Positions 46,114-63,215 of a stretch of DNA of 64,000 bases are shown here, piece after piece; position 1 is the stretch's first letter; each line of letters starts with the position of its first letter. The translations under genes and the position numbers were made by a program. Under the pieces are notes generated by a model that worked only from the letters and a program-made list of their open reading frames with translations, was not told where the DNA came from and did no database searches. The stretch comes from Methanolinea sp. (GTDB lineage: Archaea; Halobacteriota; Methanomicrobia; Methanomicrobiales; Methanospirillaceae), in contig JARYMB010000002.1 in the NCBI GenBank assembly GCA_029907345.1, forward strand, positions 1 to 64,000, in the 5' to 3' direction.

Positions 46114-46533
46114 TCACGCCGTGCAGGGGAAGATCGGCCCTGCGAAGTCCGTGAGGAGGTGGTTGTGGGGATACCTCTTCTCGCTTCCCGCATGGAATTC
46201 CATGATGGGGGCTGTCCTCTCCCTGTAGGAGAGCACGTCCTGGAGGGATTCAAGAGAAAGCGTGAACCTGTCCCCGTTCACGAGCGAGATGTTGAGGGCT
46301 TTCCCGGATCGGGAGAGCGATACCAATCCCGCCTCTCCACCGAGGTACTCCATCCAGTTCTGCTTGATGCGCCTCACGGAGCAGGTCGTTCCCCTCCCAA
46401 TCACACCGGTGAGTTCATCGACAGGGATGCAGAGCCGTGCCCCGTGTATGAAGAGGAAAACGACCTCCCGGGGGACACCCTCACCATCAAGAACCTCGTG
46501 CCCGTCCCTGCAGAGGTATCCTGCCCTTTTCAT
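46114..46533 (-). CDS. Hypothetical protein next to the nitrogenase-like operon
   Basis: 139 residues, mixed alpha/beta, with five cysteines including CRDG near the start and TCSVRR in the middle. No family is recognised. It has its own promoter: a TATA-like GGTTTATATACC (minus strand, 46571-46582) lies ~40 bases before the ATG, so it is not necessarily part of the nitrogenase-like operon. It converges with leuB. Confidence 0.5.
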   Translation of the reverse strand: MKRAGYLCRDGHEVLDGEGVPREVVFLFIHGARLCIPVDELTGVIGRGTTCSVRRIKQNWMEYLGGEAGLVSLSRSGKALNISLVNGDRFTLSLESLQDVLSYRERTAPIMEFHAGSEKRYPHNHLLTDFAGPIFPCTA

Positions 46534-46619: not shown

Positions 46620-47777
46620 CTAGGGGGAAAGATCGTCTCTTTTCTTCTTTGCCTGGTCCATGCATGCGTTCAGCACCGATTCGAAGAGTGCGAGTGCTCC
46701 TTCGATACCGGCGAGGGGACGGGAATGGAGCCTGATGGTTCCCCGGAGGGGTGGTGTCACCCCGACGAATGCAGCACCGGGGCATGCATACTTCTCAAAC
46801 GACGATCCAAGCACGAGATCCGGTTTCTCGCGGGAGAGGATCTCCACAATGGTATCGTAATCCTTAGCCCTCTCGACATGGAACTTACCGGGAACGGGCG
46901 GGTTCCGTGATCCGATCACGAGGATATCGGCATCGAGGTATTCCTCGAGCATCAGGGCTATCTCCTGCATCGTTTTGCTCTGCCCGAAGAGTGCGGCCCG
47001 GGGAGGGTCGAACCTCTTCATGAACCGGTCACAGGCTGCGGTAATTTTCCCGCTGGCAAGGGGAATATCATGTTCCAGCAGGTCACCTGCCCCCTCGCTG
47101 AACGATGCGATCCTCCTGACCGCCTCTTCGAGCCGGGAGAGCCCGACGAGACTTCCCAGAGATTCTCCCAGGTCAAGGCTGAGGTCGGGGTTGGTATGGA
47201 GCGTGTACGGGGAGAGGGGTTGGCCATACCGGTAATTCCCAAAAGGGAGAGCAGCACCCGGCGCAGTCCCTGCCAGTCCTAGCAGCCTGAGTGCCTCCTG
47301 GAAGTTCCCCTGCCGGAACGGGTCAAAGGGGGAGAGCCCGTCGATGTTCACGCCGGTCTTTGTGCCGGATACGGGAGGATCGATCGCCCTTATGGCAGAC
47401 CGGAAACCGTCCTCGTATTCTCCCGCGAAACCGGGCGCATCGATAACACAGATCCGGGCACTGTCTGAATACTTCTCCTCGAGCATCCCCCGGATATCCT
47501 CTCCCGTGATGGAGGGGATGCAGGTGCAGAGCACGGCAATCAGGTCGTATGTATCCCGGATTGCATCGATGGTGCGGATGAGAGCGTCTTCTGTCCCGAG
47601 GATGATATCCCTGTCCGTGACAGAAGAACAGTACAGGGGAAGGTGGAGGACCGAGGATGGATAATAATAGCATCCCGCAGACCCATGGATAACGACTCCT
47701 ATTCCATCGATTCCTGCGAGGGCCGCTGCTGCACCGGTGAGGGCACAGGGCCAGAGCGGCCCGGAACACTCATGCAC
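46620..47777 (-). CDS. Short nitrogenase component 1-like protein (NifK/NifE type)
   Basis: 385 residues from the GTG at 47777, which has GGAGG upstream and overlaps the preceding stop by 8 bases; the TTG/ATG extension to 47876 would overlap by 107. Component 1 motifs are C-x-L-T-G (Cys 11), IHGSAGCYYY (Cys 36), VTDRDIILGTEDAL, and LCTCIPSITGEDI (Cys 86); these match the three P-cluster-type ligands of NifK. Total length is well below NifK (about 500). It is third in the NifH-D-K-like operon. Confidence 0.85.
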   Translation of the reverse strand: MHECSGPLWPCALTGAAAALAGIDGIGVVIHGSAGCYYYPSSVLHLPLYCSSVTDRDIILGTEDALIRTIDAIRDTYDLIAVLCTCIPSITGEDIRGMLEEKYSDSARICVIDAPGFAGEYEDGFRSAIRAIDPPVSGTKTGVNIDGLSPFDPFRQGNFQEALRLLGLAGTAPGAALPFGNYRYGQPLSPYTLHTNPDLSLDLGESLGSLVGLSRLEEAVRRIASFSEGAGDLLEHDIPLASGKITAACDRFMKRFDPPRAALFGQSKTMQEIALMLEEYLDADILVIGSRNPPVPGKFHVERAKDYDTIVEILSREKPDLVLGSSFEKYACPGAAFVGVTPPLRGTIRLHSRPLAGIEGALALFESVLNACMDQAKKKRDDLSP

Positions 47778-48789
47778 GGCAGGCCCGCCTCCATTGGTAA
47801 AGGAGCCTGCGTATCCCCCCGGTGCCGACCGGGAACGGTTCCGGGACGGGAACAGGATATCCTTCCGGGTGAACAATCAGCCCTGCGGCGGACGCGATCT
47901 CCCTGCAGACTTCCGAGTCGGTCCGGTTTCCAAACGGGTCACAAAATGTGATCCGCTTTCCCGCAAGGGAGCGGAATTCACGGAATATCCTGTCCTGTCG
48001 CGCCTCTTCGTCCGCGATCGCACCTGAGACATCGAGGAAGAAGAGCCGGCCCACCTCTTCGAGGAATCGGATAGTCCCCCGGGAACCGATGGGAAACGAG
48101 CTGATGAACGGCGTCCCGAACCTCTCTTCCAGGAATCGCCCCACCTCCTCCATCGAGGGGTCCCGCAGGATGTTGCATGACCCGCGGGAGAGCCGGGATA
48201 TCCCCCCGACAGTCGTCCTGCAGACGAACCGAGTGCAGATGGGGATCCCGGCCGCCGCAAGGAGCCTCCTGACCTCGTTGAAATGCTCGTCGCGTTCGTT
48301 TTCGAGGGTCTTTTCTCCGACGAGGTTTACGGAAGGAATCTTTTCATCATCCTTTGCAAGGGACGAGAGGGACATCAGGGCCTGGATGTGGCCCTGATGG
48401 AAACCCCCACCGAGGAACCCTGCGGTCGGTATGGAGATGACCGGTATCCCGTGGTATCCGCGGCAGATCGCATCGACGTCGTCCCCGATCGCCCCTGTGA
48501 CACAGGTCGAAAGAACGCAGATGAGGGAGGGGTTTTTCGCCGCAGCCCTCCGGATCGCCGCATCGAGGGCGTCCTCGCCACCAAAGATGATGTCGGTTTC
48601 GGCAAGATCTGTCGAGAGAACCCGCGGGAGTCGCGGGTCATCCCTGCCGGCACAGAGCGCATGGAAAAGGGAGAAATTGTGATGGGCACAACCGGCGGGT
48701 CCGTGGATGATGGTCACGGACCCTTCAATCTCTGTCGTTACGGAGAGGGCGCCTGTGAGGGTGCACCCGCTGTCACGGGGAGTATTCAT
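47770..48789 (-). CDS. Short nitrogenase component 1-like protein (NifD type)
   Basis: 339 residues. Component 1 signature: SGCTLTGAL (Cys 9), [11 protein letters not shown] (Cys 34), [16 protein letters not shown] and [12 protein letters not shown] (Cys 96), plus [10 protein letters not shown] and [21 protein letters not shown] in the second half. The three ligand cysteines are kept but no equivalent of the FeMo-cofactor Cys/His is evident, and it is ~150 residues shorter than NifD. The ATG at 48789 was preferred over a TTG at 48804. It overlaps the NifH-like stop by 17 bases. Confidence 0.85.
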
Positions 48790-49588
48790 ATGCAAGGCTT
48801 TCAAGTTCCTCTATCCCGAGCGGAACAGGTATGTCCATCCTCCGGTTCTCCATCACTCTGGAAGCAAGTTCCCGGTAGACGGCTGCCTGGTTACTCGAGG
48901 GAGCAAATTCGACGACGGTCTTCTTGTTTAACTCCGCCTGCTGGACGACCTGGTCGCGCGGGATATACAAAACGAGGAAACTCCCGATGCGTTCCGCAAA
49001 TTCTGCAACAAGTTCCTCCTCGCGGGGGAGGTTCTTTGCGTTGCAGATGACTCCCGCGAGCCTGCACGTGCTCCTCGACCGGGAAGAGAGACGCGCTATC
49101 GCCTTACAAATGTTGTTTGCAGCATACAGGGACATCAGTTCGCCGGACGTAACGAGGTAGACCTCTTCTGCGTACCCCTCCCGCATCGGCATCGCAAAGC
49201 CGCCGCAGACCACGTCGCCCAGGACATCGTAAACGACGACATCGGCATGGAGGGCTCCCAGCCGTTCGAGGATCTGGAAGGTTGCGATGATGCCCCTGCC
49301 TGCACAACCGACACCCGGTTCGGGACCGCCTGCCTCAACGCACCGGACACCCATGAAGCCCTCGTAGACGATGTCCTCCCGGGCAATGTCCGAATCGCCC
49401 CTCTCGCGGACCAAATCCATCACGGTTGGTATCAGCCTGCCCTGCATCAGCATCCGTGTGCTGTCCCTCTTTGGGTCGCACCCGATCTGCATCACATCGA
49501 GCCCGCGGCAGGCAAGAGCCGCTGAAAGGTTAGCCGCGGTGGTTGATTTTCCTATTCCCCCTTTCCCATAGAGGGCAATCTGTTTCAT
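48773..49588 (-). CDS. NifH-like ATP-dependent iron protein
   Basis: 271 residues. P-loop [10 protein letters not shown] (7-16), switch [13 protein letters not shown] (Cys 128), and [13 protein letters not shown] (Cys 95, Arg 98) give both [4Fe-4S] ligands, the full NifH/BchL/CfbC pattern. The C-terminal [18 protein letters not shown] segment is also conserved. It delivers electrons to component 1 at the cost of [14 protein letters not shown] recalls CfbC (F430 reductase) more than true NifH. It leads the operon with the two short component 1 proteins; a TATA-like element lies at 49627-49636. Confidence 0.95.
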
Positions 49589-59557: not shown

Positions 59558-60766
59558 ATGCGCATCCTCGTCCTCGATACCATCCATGGTGGCAGGACAA
59601 TTGCCCATGCCCTCCGGGAAAGGGGCCATGCCGTTGAAACGGTCGATATATACAGGGGACGGGAGGGAATCAGCCCGTCTGATGCACGTTCCGGGGACTA
59701 CGAGATGATCATCGCACCCGTCCACCTCGATCCCGGTCATGTGCTCCTCCGCGAATTGCCCGCCCCCCTCGTCACGCACCACGAGGCTGTACGCTGGATC
59801 ATCGGGAAAAAGGCCCCTGCCCGGTTCATCGAGGTGACAGGTGCACGGGGAAAGACCACGACTGCCAGTGCACTGGCTCACGTCATGCAGGGTCCCGGCA
59901 TCCTCCATACGTCCCTGGGGACAATTCGTCTGCCTGAAAAGGAGACTATCGGAAGGACGGGGATTACACCTGCCTCGCTTATTGCAGCGGCACACTCTGC
60001 ATATTCCCAGAACCGCTGGCTCATCGGGGAAGTGTCGCTTGGTTTCGTGGGTGCGGGCAACCTGGGGGTTCTCTCCTCCGCCGGAACCTATGCATTCGGC
60101 GCGGGAAAGAGGGATGCGCTCTCTGAAAAACTCCGGTCCGGAAACAGGCTGCCCCTCGTCATTGTGCCTCCGGGGTTCGGGCGGTCCGGAAACAGGCTCC
60201 CTGCCGATACAGTTGCCGTTTCTGAAGGAAGCACGTGCCGGTACGAATGGGAGGGGATAACTGGCAGGTACGAAAACCCCCTCCTCGGGACGGAGGCTTA
60301 CCGCGATCCCCTCCTCATTGCGACGGCAGCAGCCTGCGTCCTTGGCATCGACCCTTCCCCCCTTGCCGGTTTTGCGCCGCTGGAGGGAAGAAAAACCGTT
60401 TCATGGGTCGGCAGAACTCTCGTCGTGGACGATTCCAACTCGGGAACCTGTGCGGAAACAGCCCGTGACGCAATCCGCCTCGCCCGTGCAAGGGCAGGGA
60501 TACCCTCGCCCCTGACTCTCGTTATCGGAAAGGAAGCAGGGGCGATCTGCGAAGGTTTCCCGCCGGACGAGATTGCATCGGTCATCAGGACAGAGTCCCC
60601 CGATAACGTCATCCTCGTCGGGGATTATGACCCGGATGAGGTCTGTCATGCGTGGGAAGGGGGAGGCCGCGTCCTGCAGGCACGCACCCTCGGGGAGGGG
60701 AGGGCCCGTGCGTTGCAGGTTCCTGATGGGAGCATTGTTGTCCTCGCGGTGAAAACATGGCGTTGA
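59558..60766 (+). CDS. cfbE: Coenzyme F430 synthase CfbE (Mur ligase family)
   Basis: 402 residues. P-loop VTGARGKTTTASA, then KTVSWVGRTLVVDDSNSGT and other Mur-ligase motifs. CfbE closes the sixth carbocycle in the last step of F430 formation, with ATP. It lies ten bases after cfbA and overlaps cfbD by ten bases. Confidence 0.93.
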   Translation: MRILVLDTIHGGRTIAHALRERGHAVETVDIYRGREGISPSDARSGDYEMIIAPVHLDPGHVLLRELPAPLVTHHEAVRWIIGKKAPARFIEVTGARGKTTTASALAHVMQGPGILHTSLGTIRLPEKETIGRTGITPASLIAAAHSAYSQNRWLIGEVSLGFVGAGNLGVLSSAGTYAFGAGKRDALSEKLRSGNRLPLVIVPPGFGRSGNRLPADTVAVSEGSTCRYEWEGITGRYENPLLGTEAYRDPLLIATAAACVLGIDPSPLAGFAPLEGRKTVSWVGRTLVVDDSNSGTCAETARDAIRLARARAGIPSPLTLVIGKEAGAICEGFPPDEIASVIRTESPDNVILVGDYDPDEVCHAWEGGGRVLQARTLGEGRARALQVPDGSIVVLAVKTWR

Positions 60767-61836
60767 AGACGATGAAGTACATGCAGCCCCGGCCGAGTTC
60801 CATCGTTGCCGCCCTTTACACGGCGAGGGATCTCGGGGTCGATGTATCGATCCTCCACGGCCCCTCGGGGTGTTCGTTCAAGCATGCGAGGCTGCTCGAG
60901 GAAGACGGGATGAGGGTGCTGACAACATCACTTGCCGATCACGAGTTCATTTTCGGTGGGCAGCAACCCCTTGAAGCAGTGCTCGAGTACGCGGAGAGGA
61001 CTTTCTCTCCCCGGCGGATGGCCGTCATCGGGACGTGCGTCTCCATGATCATCGGCGAAGACCTCCAGGCAGCAATCCGGAACTCGGGGATTTCGACCCC
61101 GACCATACCGGTCGAGATCCATGCCGGTTACCCTGAAAACATCGCGGGCGTCATAGCAACCCTCGAACCTGCGGCGGCACAGGGGTGGATATCACAGGAG
61201 GAACTGGAGAGGCAGAAGTACCTCCTCGGGAAGGCAAACGAGGTTGAACGGCTCAGGGGCGCAGCATCAAAGCCATACATCGAACCATCCCGCGGTGACC
61301 TCAAGCACGTGGCGGCAAAACGCCTCCTGGCCCTCGCCGACTCGGGGAAAACGGGTGTCGCCATCATGAACGCAAAGAAGGAGACGGCATACATGTTTGC
61401 CGACGAACTCATTGCCCTCCACGACGCCCGGCCCGGGGCGGACATCACGTTTATTGCAAACCTCGAGGAGAAGGGGCTGCCCAAGGTGAGAGAGGATGCC
61501 CGCCGGATCCGGACGGAAATGGAGGCAAAAAGCCTGGATCTCCGGCTGTGCGGAGCCCTCGACGAATACGGTGCGAATGGAGATGCATTAGGGGAGGTCA
61601 TTTGCTCCATCTCGCCTGAATTTGCATTCATCGTCGGAGTCCCCCATGCAATACCCCCTTCTGCTCTCCAGGGAATCGAGTGCATCTCGGTCACGAATGG
61701 TCCCCGCCAGGTGGAACCTCTCCGGGAGCAGGGCCATCGCATTGTTGTGGTCGAAGTGGACCTCCACCCGCGGACGCTCGGGGTGAGGAGTATCGTGGAG
61801 AGTGAGCTCGGGGCGGTCATCAGGAGCATGGCATGA
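60757..61836 (+). CDS. cfbD: Ni-sirohydrochlorin a,c-diamide reductive cyclase subunit CfbD
   Basis: 359 residues, NifD-like. SILHGPSGCSFKHARLL (Cys 39), LADHEFIFGGQQPLEAVLEY and VIGTCVSMIIGEDL show the component 1 fold. CfbD with the NifH-like CfbC reduces the nickel-tetrapyrrole ring. The three-Cys order of the short component 1 proteins at 46620-48789 is not kept (the first Cys is missing). cfbC is not in this operon. It overlaps cfbB by four bases. Confidence 0.95.
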   Translation: MALKTMKYMQPRPSSIVAALYTARDLGVDVSILHGPSGCSFKHARLLEEDGMRVLTTSLADHEFIFGGQQPLEAVLEYAERTFSPRRMAVIGTCVSMIIGEDLQAAIRNSGISTPTIPVEIHAGYPENIAGVIATLEPAAAQGWISQEELERQKYLLGKANEVERLRGAASKPYIEPSRGDLKHVAAKRLLALADSGKTGVAIMNAKKETAYMFADELIALHDARPGADITFIANLEEKGLPKVREDARRIRTEMEAKSLDLRLCGALDEYGANGDALGEVICSISPEFAFIVGVPHAIPPSALQGIECISVTNGPRQVEPLREQGHRIVVVEVDLHPRTLGVRSIVESELGAVIRSMA

Positions 61837-63215
61837 AGGCGCTGATGGTAGCGGGTGACCGTTCCGGGAGCGGCAAGACGAGTGTCACCCTTGCCATTGC
61901 ATCCGCCCTCTCCCGCAGGATGGCTGTCCAGACGTTCAAGGTCGGGATGGATTACATCGACCCGTCGTACCTCTCGGCAGTAACGGGACGACCCTGCCGT
62001 AACCTCGATACATTCGTGATGAGCCCGGATCAGGTTCTCTCCGTGTTTGCCAACGGGTGCCGTGGCGCAGACATCGCCATCATCGAGGGTGTCAGGGGAC
62101 TGTACGAGGGGGCTGAAGCACTCGGTGATTCCGGGAGCAGTGCATCTGTCGCACGGATCCTCGATGTTCCTGTTGTCCTCGTGGTGAACGCACGGAGTAT
62201 CACCCGGAGCGCCGCTGCGATCGTCCGGGGTTTCCAGTCGTTTGATCCCTCGATTCGGATTGCGGGTGTGATCCTCAACAACGTTGCCGGGGAAAAACAC
62301 GCGGAGAAGGCCAAAATGGCCGTGGAACATTACTGCGGCGTGCCTGTTCTAGGCACCGTCCCCCGGAATCCGGAACTCGAACTCGGGATGCGTCACCTGG
62401 GGCTCGTGCCGTTCAGGGAAGGCCAGGAGACAGGAGGTTTCCGGGAGAAGATCGGGACAATCACAGAGGCAGTCCGGCAGGCAGTCGACCCCGGCGTTAT
62501 CCTGGGAATTGCACGCGAGGTTTCTCTGCCGGAAGGGGAGGCCCCCTGGTTCTCCCGCACGAAAAAACAGGATATCAGGATAGGTATCGCGTATGACCAC
62601 GTTTTCAACTTCTACTATGCAGACCTCTTTGATATTCTGGAAGCACAGGGGTGCAGGGTCGTCTTCTTTTCCCCGGCATCCGGCGACCTTCCCGATGCCG
62701 ACGGGTACATCATCGGCGGAGGGTACCCCGAGATGCATGCCCCGGCCCTTGCGGAGAACCAGAACATGCTCGGGGAGATCAGGGAACGCTCGCGGGAGGG
62801 TACCCCCATATACGCGGAGTGCGGGGGGCTCATGTACCTGACCCGGGAACTTGTATTGAAGGAGGGGTGGCTGGGGAGAAAGGCAGAGGAGAGGTACCCC
62901 CTGTCCGGCGTTTTTCCGGGAAAGACGGTCATGCCAGCGAGCCGGGTCGTTGCCTATATTTCCGGGGAGAGCAGCGCGGAATCCCCCATGGGAGCATCCC
63001 GGTTCAGGGGGCACGAGTTCCACTACTCCGCGGTACTGCTGCCACACGATACCCGTTTCGTATACAGGCTCTCGAGGGGGCAGGGAATATGCGATGGACA
63101 GGATGGTGCACTCGTCCGGAAGACCCTCGGGAGCTTTTCGCATCTCCACCCGGTCGGGAGCCATGCCATGTTTTCGAGGTTCCTCGAGACCTGCCGTGAT
63201 TCCCGCGAGGCGTGA
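61833..63215 (+). CDS. cfbB: Ni-sirohydrochlorin a,c-diamide synthase CfbB
   Basis: 460 residues. [17 protein letters not shown] and the [17 protein letters not shown] stretch form the N-terminal ATPase domain; [14 protein letters not shown] (catalytic Cys) and GHEFHYSA (His) form the glutamine amidotransferase domain, as in CobB/CbiA. It amidates the a and c side chains. The operon context favours CfbB over cobyrinate diamide synthase. Last gene of the F430 operon. Confidence 0.95.

Follow-up and report, generated by a model that had tools for sequence, protein, structure and literature searches.

A widespread nitrogenase-like D/K pair of Methanomicrobiales, encoded with a CfbC-type iron protein and possibly acting on a tetrapyrrole

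The H-D-K operon of Methanolinea sp.

The 64,000 nucleotides analysed here come from Methanolinea sp. (Methanomicrobiales; assembly GCA_029907345.1, contig JARYMB010000002.1, positions 1 to 64,000) and are referred to as the window. An original prediction made from the sequence alone had pointed out in it a compact nitrogenase-like operon, encoding a NifH-like iron (Fe) protein and two short component 1 subunits. The three genes, here called H, D and K, all lie on the minus strand, at the coordinates that had been predicted (aa, amino acids):

48773..49588, minus strand, H: NifH/CfbC-type Fe protein, 271 aa (PF00142, Fer4_NifH, E-value 1.3e-106)
47770..48789, minus strand, D: component 1 subunit, 339 aa (PF00148, Oxidored_nitro, 2.7e-54, covering 1-274 of 399 positions)
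46620..47777, minus strand, K: component 1 subunit, 385 aa from a GTG start (PF00148, Oxidored_nitro, 2.1e-36)

H and D overlap by 17 bases (48773-48789) and D and K by 8 (47770-47777), the latter overlap having been noticed before. The open frame of K extends to a TTG at 47876, which would give 418 aa, and the GTG start at 47777 is backed by a Met aligned there in many relatives. H is a complete NifH-like protein, as proposed, with the P-loop, Cys95, Cys128 and Arg98 each at least 95% conserved in 56 aligned rows (the window's H included). That D and K are far shorter than their relatives is true with respect to NifD, NifK, NifE and NifN, but not to CfbD (359 aa) or to a fourth component 1 protein of the same genome (392 aa), which are about as short.

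The three genes are under purifying selection, the ratio of nonsynonymous to synonymous substitution rates (dN/dS) against three relatives each being 0.02-0.06 for H, 0.12-0.17 for D and 0.14-0.18 for K. A reading of D and K as truncated pseudogenes is ruled out by these values together with profile matches over the full ~340 positions in most of the relatives listed. H-D-K is almost certainly a real functional operon.

The D profile is matched at E<=1e-60 in 201 of 232 Methanomicrobiales genomes (counted by eye from the table), and 205 of these genomes have K at E<=1e-20; among the 135 genomes of the order that are at least 90% complete, K was found in 126. E-values of the D profile are <=1e-104 within the order and 7e-53 for the best match outside, in a sample of 294 genomes of the phylum that includes members of the order; the class-level search turned out to span no genomes beyond the 232 of the order and hence no outsiders. 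The three-gene order, which the original prediction had proposed to follow in other Methanomicrobiales, is kept in loci of families f1, f3, f5 and f6. K lies ~2.4-4.9 kb away from D in L015, L020, L031 and L148, on the opposite strand in L015 and L020. Synteny with FprA, PRK, TrkH and LeuBCD is conserved and pointed to no function. In locus L136 a methyltransferase and two oligopeptide-type ABC ATPases precede H-D-K on the same strand, and L137 has the same layout.

Family membership of D and K

Against the CfbD model TIGR03282 (cut-off 268) D scores 47.9 bits and K 32.5; the best score with the curated BchN, BchB, BchY and BchZ models is 60 bits against 490, and NifE, the best NCBIfam match of D, gives 117 bits against a cut-off of 505. 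With the D profile, the chains of methylthio-alkane reductase (MAR) score 89-94 bits, the best NifE and Clostridium-type NifD proteins 115-118, and the D parts of the H-D fusion proteins described below 136-177 (near-identical profile). In a component 1 tree of 58 rows, D and K form clades of their own (support 100/99 and 100/100), both of them outside the clades of NifD/E, NifK/N and CfbD and apart from the two Bch rows, BchN and BchB being long branches and MarDK, VnfEN and group VI not being among the rows; MAR was compared outside the tree, through its profile and fold scores. The sister clade of D is the D part of the H-D fusions (97/99), each of the two being monophyletic, and the affinity of K is not settled in this tree. 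The profiles and the tree bear out that D and K are distinct from CfbD and fall in none of the characterised clades sampled, and support the view of a heteromeric nitrogenase-like pair, predicted from the two subunits, outside those clades.

Conserved cysteines, cofactor ligands and predicted folds

The three P-cluster-like cysteines that had been recognized in each subunit are invariant: Cys9, Cys34 and Cys96 of D in 63/63 rows, and Cys11, Cys36 and Cys86 of K (44, 69 and 119 of the 418-aa form) in 45/45, some genomes being present twice among these rows, as a named and an unnamed locus. They align with the P-cluster ligands of NifD and NifK. Further conserved cysteines are Cys109 of D (62/63 rows) and the N-terminal Cys37 of K (44/45, in the 418-aa numbering).

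At the column of the FeMo-cofactor (FeMo-co) ligand Cys275, D has Asp or Glu in 8/8 rows, CfbD has Asp in 4/4 and NifE has Cys in 4/4, and the region of His442 is absent from D, with a gap in 8/8 aligned rows; the alignment of D is distant at both columns. NifD residues 275 and 442 are numbered after PMC3464626. Measured against Mo-nitrogenase, the six P-cluster cysteines are therefore present and the FeMo-co ligands Cys275 and His442 are missing from D.

AlphaFold models of the single chains, D and K each folded alone and not as a complex, are confident, with a predicted local distance difference test (pLDDT) score of 91.1 for D and 85.1 for K, and both resemble structures of nitrogenase component 1. 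The best fold E-values among the matches listed are 3.4e-20 for D (a NifE chain) and 3.9e-20 for K (the MoFe beta chain), and the fold matches of D include NifEN, NifD, MAR and DPOR. Among the 50 matches listed, the highest query template-modelling (TM) score of K is 0.77, to subunit B of DPOR, and that of D is 0.74, to MAR. D appears to be without most of the third domain, and a cavity on its side may be more open. On this sequence evidence, D/K probably carries a P-cluster-like relay without a catalytic metallocluster.

Several known systems share part of these features. NifEN includes the best named profile family for D and has three cysteines at the P-cluster positions in each aligned NifE and NifN row, but D is without the cofactor Cys and the His region, and the clades are separate. 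DPOR (BchNB) is a large-substrate reductase without a catalytic metallocluster (PMC3464626) and is closest to K by TM score among the listed matches, whereas its BchB row reads Pro/Asp/Cys against Cys at all six D/K positions, and D/K are far below the Bch cut-offs. MarHDK is heteromeric and has P-clusters (PMC12552129), but D lacks the ligands of its [Fe8S9C] cluster (the Cys275-equivalent is absent), and its profile score is lower than that of NifE. CfbC/CfbD is alike in its CfbC, whose model H passes, in its short component 1 subunits and in the acidic residue at the Cys275 column (Asp/Glu in D, Asp in CfbD); CfbD is, however, homodimeric (PMC12176620) with Ser/Cys/Cys at the P-cluster positions, whereas in D/K two different proteins, of separate clades, each have three Cys there.

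Nitrogenase-like DK pairs with three Cys per subunit and no FeMo-co ligands are described in PMC3464626, whose 'yellow' clade may contain D/K members. The pair Mlab_1039/1040 of the same paper was considered as identical with D/K and rejected, as it has two plus one conserved cysteines against three plus three in L136/L137. No title or abstract opening among the papers listed describes an order-wide D/K pair with CfbC in one operon, an H shared between CfbD and another component 1 protein, the argument from a sole Fe protein, or D/K loss in place.

H is a CfbC-type Fe protein and probably shared

The operon had been taken to contain its own dedicated reductase, a premise that does not hold. 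H scores 422 bits with the CfbC model NF033200 (F430_CfbC), above the cut-off of 402, and 385 bits with the nifH model TIGR01287, below the cut-off of 394. With NF033200, the CfbC proteins encoded beside CfbD in two other genomes score 429 and 405 bits, two H proteins from genomes without D/K 421 and 406.5, and H of L136 424, while the single true NifH tested stays below the cut-off at 386 bits. The other genes that bear on H in the window are the following:

59558..60766, plus strand, CfbE: coenzyme F430 synthase (NF033197, 281 bits, cut-off 250)
60757..61836, plus strand, CfbD: the other component 1 partner proposed for H, 359 aa (TIGR03282, 491 bits, cut-off 268)
61833..63215, plus strand, CfbB: Ni-sirohydrochlorin a,c-diamide synthase (NF033195, 630 bits, cut-off 560)
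46114..46533, minus strand, 139-aa protein downstream of K: no match to a Pfam family; a relative adjoins the D/K-less H in loci L145, L146 and L147

In the window genome (G000), H is the only strong NifH match, the others being weak (3.2e-12 and 5.6e-6), and as this genome is 88% complete the absence of a further NifH is not certain. Exactly one NifH at E<=1e-60 is found in 13 of the 27 single-contig genomes of the order (by eye), and all 13 carry D and K. In three genomes, G203 (L145), G130 (L146) and G197 (L147), the gene order FprA, PRK or TrkH, H and the 139-aa gene is kept while D and K are missing in between. Neither D nor K occurs in G130 (99% complete) or G203 (96%), and at E<=1e-40 these two genomes have no NifH besides the orphan H. 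Every methanogen needs F430, and CfbD needs an Fe protein; the sole H of such D/K-less genomes must therefore serve CfbD, and the fact that H is almost always encoded beside D suggests a role with D/K as well. We consider it very probable, from gene content, that H serves both CfbD in F430 synthesis and D/K, and the operon would be more aptly described as cfbC with an additional D/K pair.

Some observations weigh against this sharing. The other 14 of the 27 single-contig genomes hold 2-5 NifH, so that sharing is not forced there, and G197 has a second Fe protein within an H-D fusion. CfbD was identified with its own model in the window, and its presence in G130 and G203 is presumed. The cfbEDB genes lie 10 kb from H-D-K on the opposite strand, and their proximity may be incidental. 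In the tree of NifH-like proteins that had been called for, run with a BchL outgroup, H of the order forms its own clade (95/90), apart from the NifH clade (100/99) and from a clade (99/98) made up of four CfbC encoded beside CfbD in other genomes and one more H; the deep branches of this tree are weak and the outgroup is a long branch.

The fourth component 1 protein of the genome (392 aa) is encoded outside the window (G000:C22:76740-77852, that is L036:12698-13876), where its gene follows one for the sulfur transferase LarE (TIGR00268, 260 bits). Its own group has all three P-cluster Cys and the Cys275-equivalent in 5/5 rows. As the genome has no second strong NifH, H may serve this protein too.

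A sister system with fused H and D

Fusions of H and D (728-805 aa), followed by a K of 423-449 aa (362 aa in one open reading frame), are found in family f8, presumably Methanosarcinaceae, and in some genomes of the order (for example L089:8362-11867 and L135:9494-12948). This system is related to H-D-K through its D part, but differs from it in the fusion itself, in a D part that spans the whole component 1 profile, in the Asp/Cys/Pro of its K at the P-cluster positions, and in its gene neighbourhood. Twelve fusion loci were compared (L089-L099 and L135), with neighbours Pfam-typed in L089, L092, L095, L090, L094, L096, L097, L098, L099 and L135, the rest typed by BLAST clustering, and counts made by eye. 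CbiZ-type proteins are encoded nearby in 7 loci, FecCD/BtuC-type permeases in 7, BtuF-type proteins in 6, CbiK in 4, chelatase AAA/VWA proteins in 3 and CobN in 1; in all, corrinoid-salvage, FecCD-type transport or tetrapyrrole-chelatase genes stand beside the fusion in 8/12 loci. The fusion system is a candidate ATP-driven corrinoid or tetrapyrrole reductase. Fused nifH-nifE-like genes are noted in PMC3464626, as is a role that NflD may have in reducing cobalamin.

The fusion K occurs in 8/12 genomes of genus g13 (probably Methanospirillum), all without D/K, in 2/25 D/K-bearing genomes and in 0/3 other D/K-less genomes tested, several of the genomes in this comparison being incomplete and g13 being one lineage. 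This distribution suggests that D/K and the fusion system may have related functions. One genome, G114, has an additional H-D-K set of 295, 517 and 451 aa (L157:2010-5825) beside both the H-D-K of the order and an H-D fusion.

Proposed function and alternatives

In the mechanism that we propose, H would hydrolyse ATP and pass low-potential electrons both to CfbD and to the D/K heteromer, a sharing to which gene content points strongly. The six conserved cysteines, an observed ligand set, would hold a P-cluster-type [Fe-S] relay at the interface of the predicted D/K complex. Because both FeMo-co/L-cluster ligands tested are absent from D, this relay would reduce an organic or metallo-organic substrate in the D-side cavity, with no metallocluster. 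The leading candidate for the substrate is a tetrapyrrole, possibly a corrinoid, owing to the gene context of the fusion system and to the acidic residue that D and CfbD have in common at the Cys275 column. The heteromeric ATP-dependent reductase of the original prediction agrees with a two-subunit pair that has an intact P-cluster ligand set and no signs of decay, but its Fe protein would not be a dedicated one. As a whole, the explanation by a CfbC-type H with a Methanomicrobiales-specific D/K, forming a P-cluster-type reductase that uses ATP to act on a tetrapyrrole-like substrate, is put forward tentatively, as the best one with a little under an even chance. A tetrapyrrole substrate taken by itself has nearly even chances, and a corrinoid in particular is rather unlikely.

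Several points speak against a tetrapyrrole or corrinoid substrate. A hidden Markov model alignment places a gap, not an acidic residue, in D at the Cys275 position, and H-D-K has no corrinoid gene as a neighbour in the window. Four of the 12 fusion loci (L094, L096, L098 and L099, with seven neighbours Pfam-typed) have no such neighbours, the fusion of L096 beginning 582 bases from the contig end so that its upstream side lies outside the contig. The FecCD-type permease family also transports iron or haem compounds, so that the cobalamin reading leans mainly on CbiZ. The Asp/Cys/Pro of the fusion K means that the cluster there differs from the one predicted for D/K, and two genomes (G112 and G114) carry both systems. 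Finally, genomes without D/K keep CbiD, so that de novo cobalamin synthesis does not depend on the pair.

Two alternatives are each unlikely, to a similar degree. D/K could aid CfbC/CfbD as an accessory or modified F430 reductase, or as a reductase that tailors F430 or one of its precursors, which would suit the operon shared with a CfbC-type H, the acidic residue common to D and CfbD and the cfbEDB genes 10 kb away; but methanogens without D/K keep H in place and must still make F430, so that D/K is not essential for it. The substrate that D/K reduces could also be some metabolite other than a tetrapyrrole, such as a small organic sulfur compound, in the manner of MAR or an isethionate-linked Nfl enzyme. 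The heteromeric nature and intact P-cluster ligands of D/K agree with this, and MAR, which has P-clusters, is among the closest listed folds for D; yet MAR also uses an [Fe8S9C] cluster (PMC12552129) for which D lacks the ligands, and its chains score below NifE, Clostridium-type NifD and, further still, the fusion D.

It is less probable again that D/K is a NifEN-like scaffold or maturase which, with H, processes the [8Fe-9S-C] cluster derived from NifB for use in the complex that activates MCR. This idea draws on NifE as the best NCBIfam match of D, on NifEN as its best fold E-value among the matches listed, and on PMC12176620, where clusters resembling the L-cluster are reported from McrC and Mmp7 and NifB is cited as essential in methanogens. 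It has to contend with the Asp or Glu of D where NifE has its cysteine, with the missing His442 region, and with G130 and G203, whose lack of both D and K implies that maturation by D/K is not generally required for MCR.

The idea that D/K takes the place of CbiJ, the cobalt-precorrin-6A reductase missing from cobalamin synthesis, was also considered, as PF02571 at E<=1e-5 is found in 0/232 genomes of the order and 0/294 of the phylum (3/14 controls positive), and was rejected as highly improbable, since CbiJ is absent across the whole phylum sample, most of it without order-type D, and CbiD is kept in 9/9 D/K-less genomes of the order tested (by eye), six of which (G130, G200, G203, G206, G142 and G143) are also without the fusion K. 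CbiD, by contrast, was found in 23/24 genomes tested.

Significance

Returning to the reductase of a tetrapyrrole-like substrate, H-D-K could be the third sort of nitrogenase-like reductase directed at tetrapyrroles, a possibility that we regard as doubtful rather than remote. Such an enzyme would combine full P-cluster ligands with the absence of a metallocluster, have one subunit short of the third domain, be driven by the same CfbC as F430 synthesis and, in the majority of Methanomicrobiales, act on a tetrapyrrole of cobalt or nickel; in genus g13 it would have been replaced by its relative with fused H-D and K. If the proposal is correct, a nitrogenase-derived enzyme has been widely conserved in an order of major methane producers, and two or more catalytic components are served by its Fe protein. 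It would bear on the origin of the P-cluster without FeMo-cofactor, and nifH surveys would count H in organisms that do not fix nitrogen. The question of the substrate would be directly testable with three small genes.

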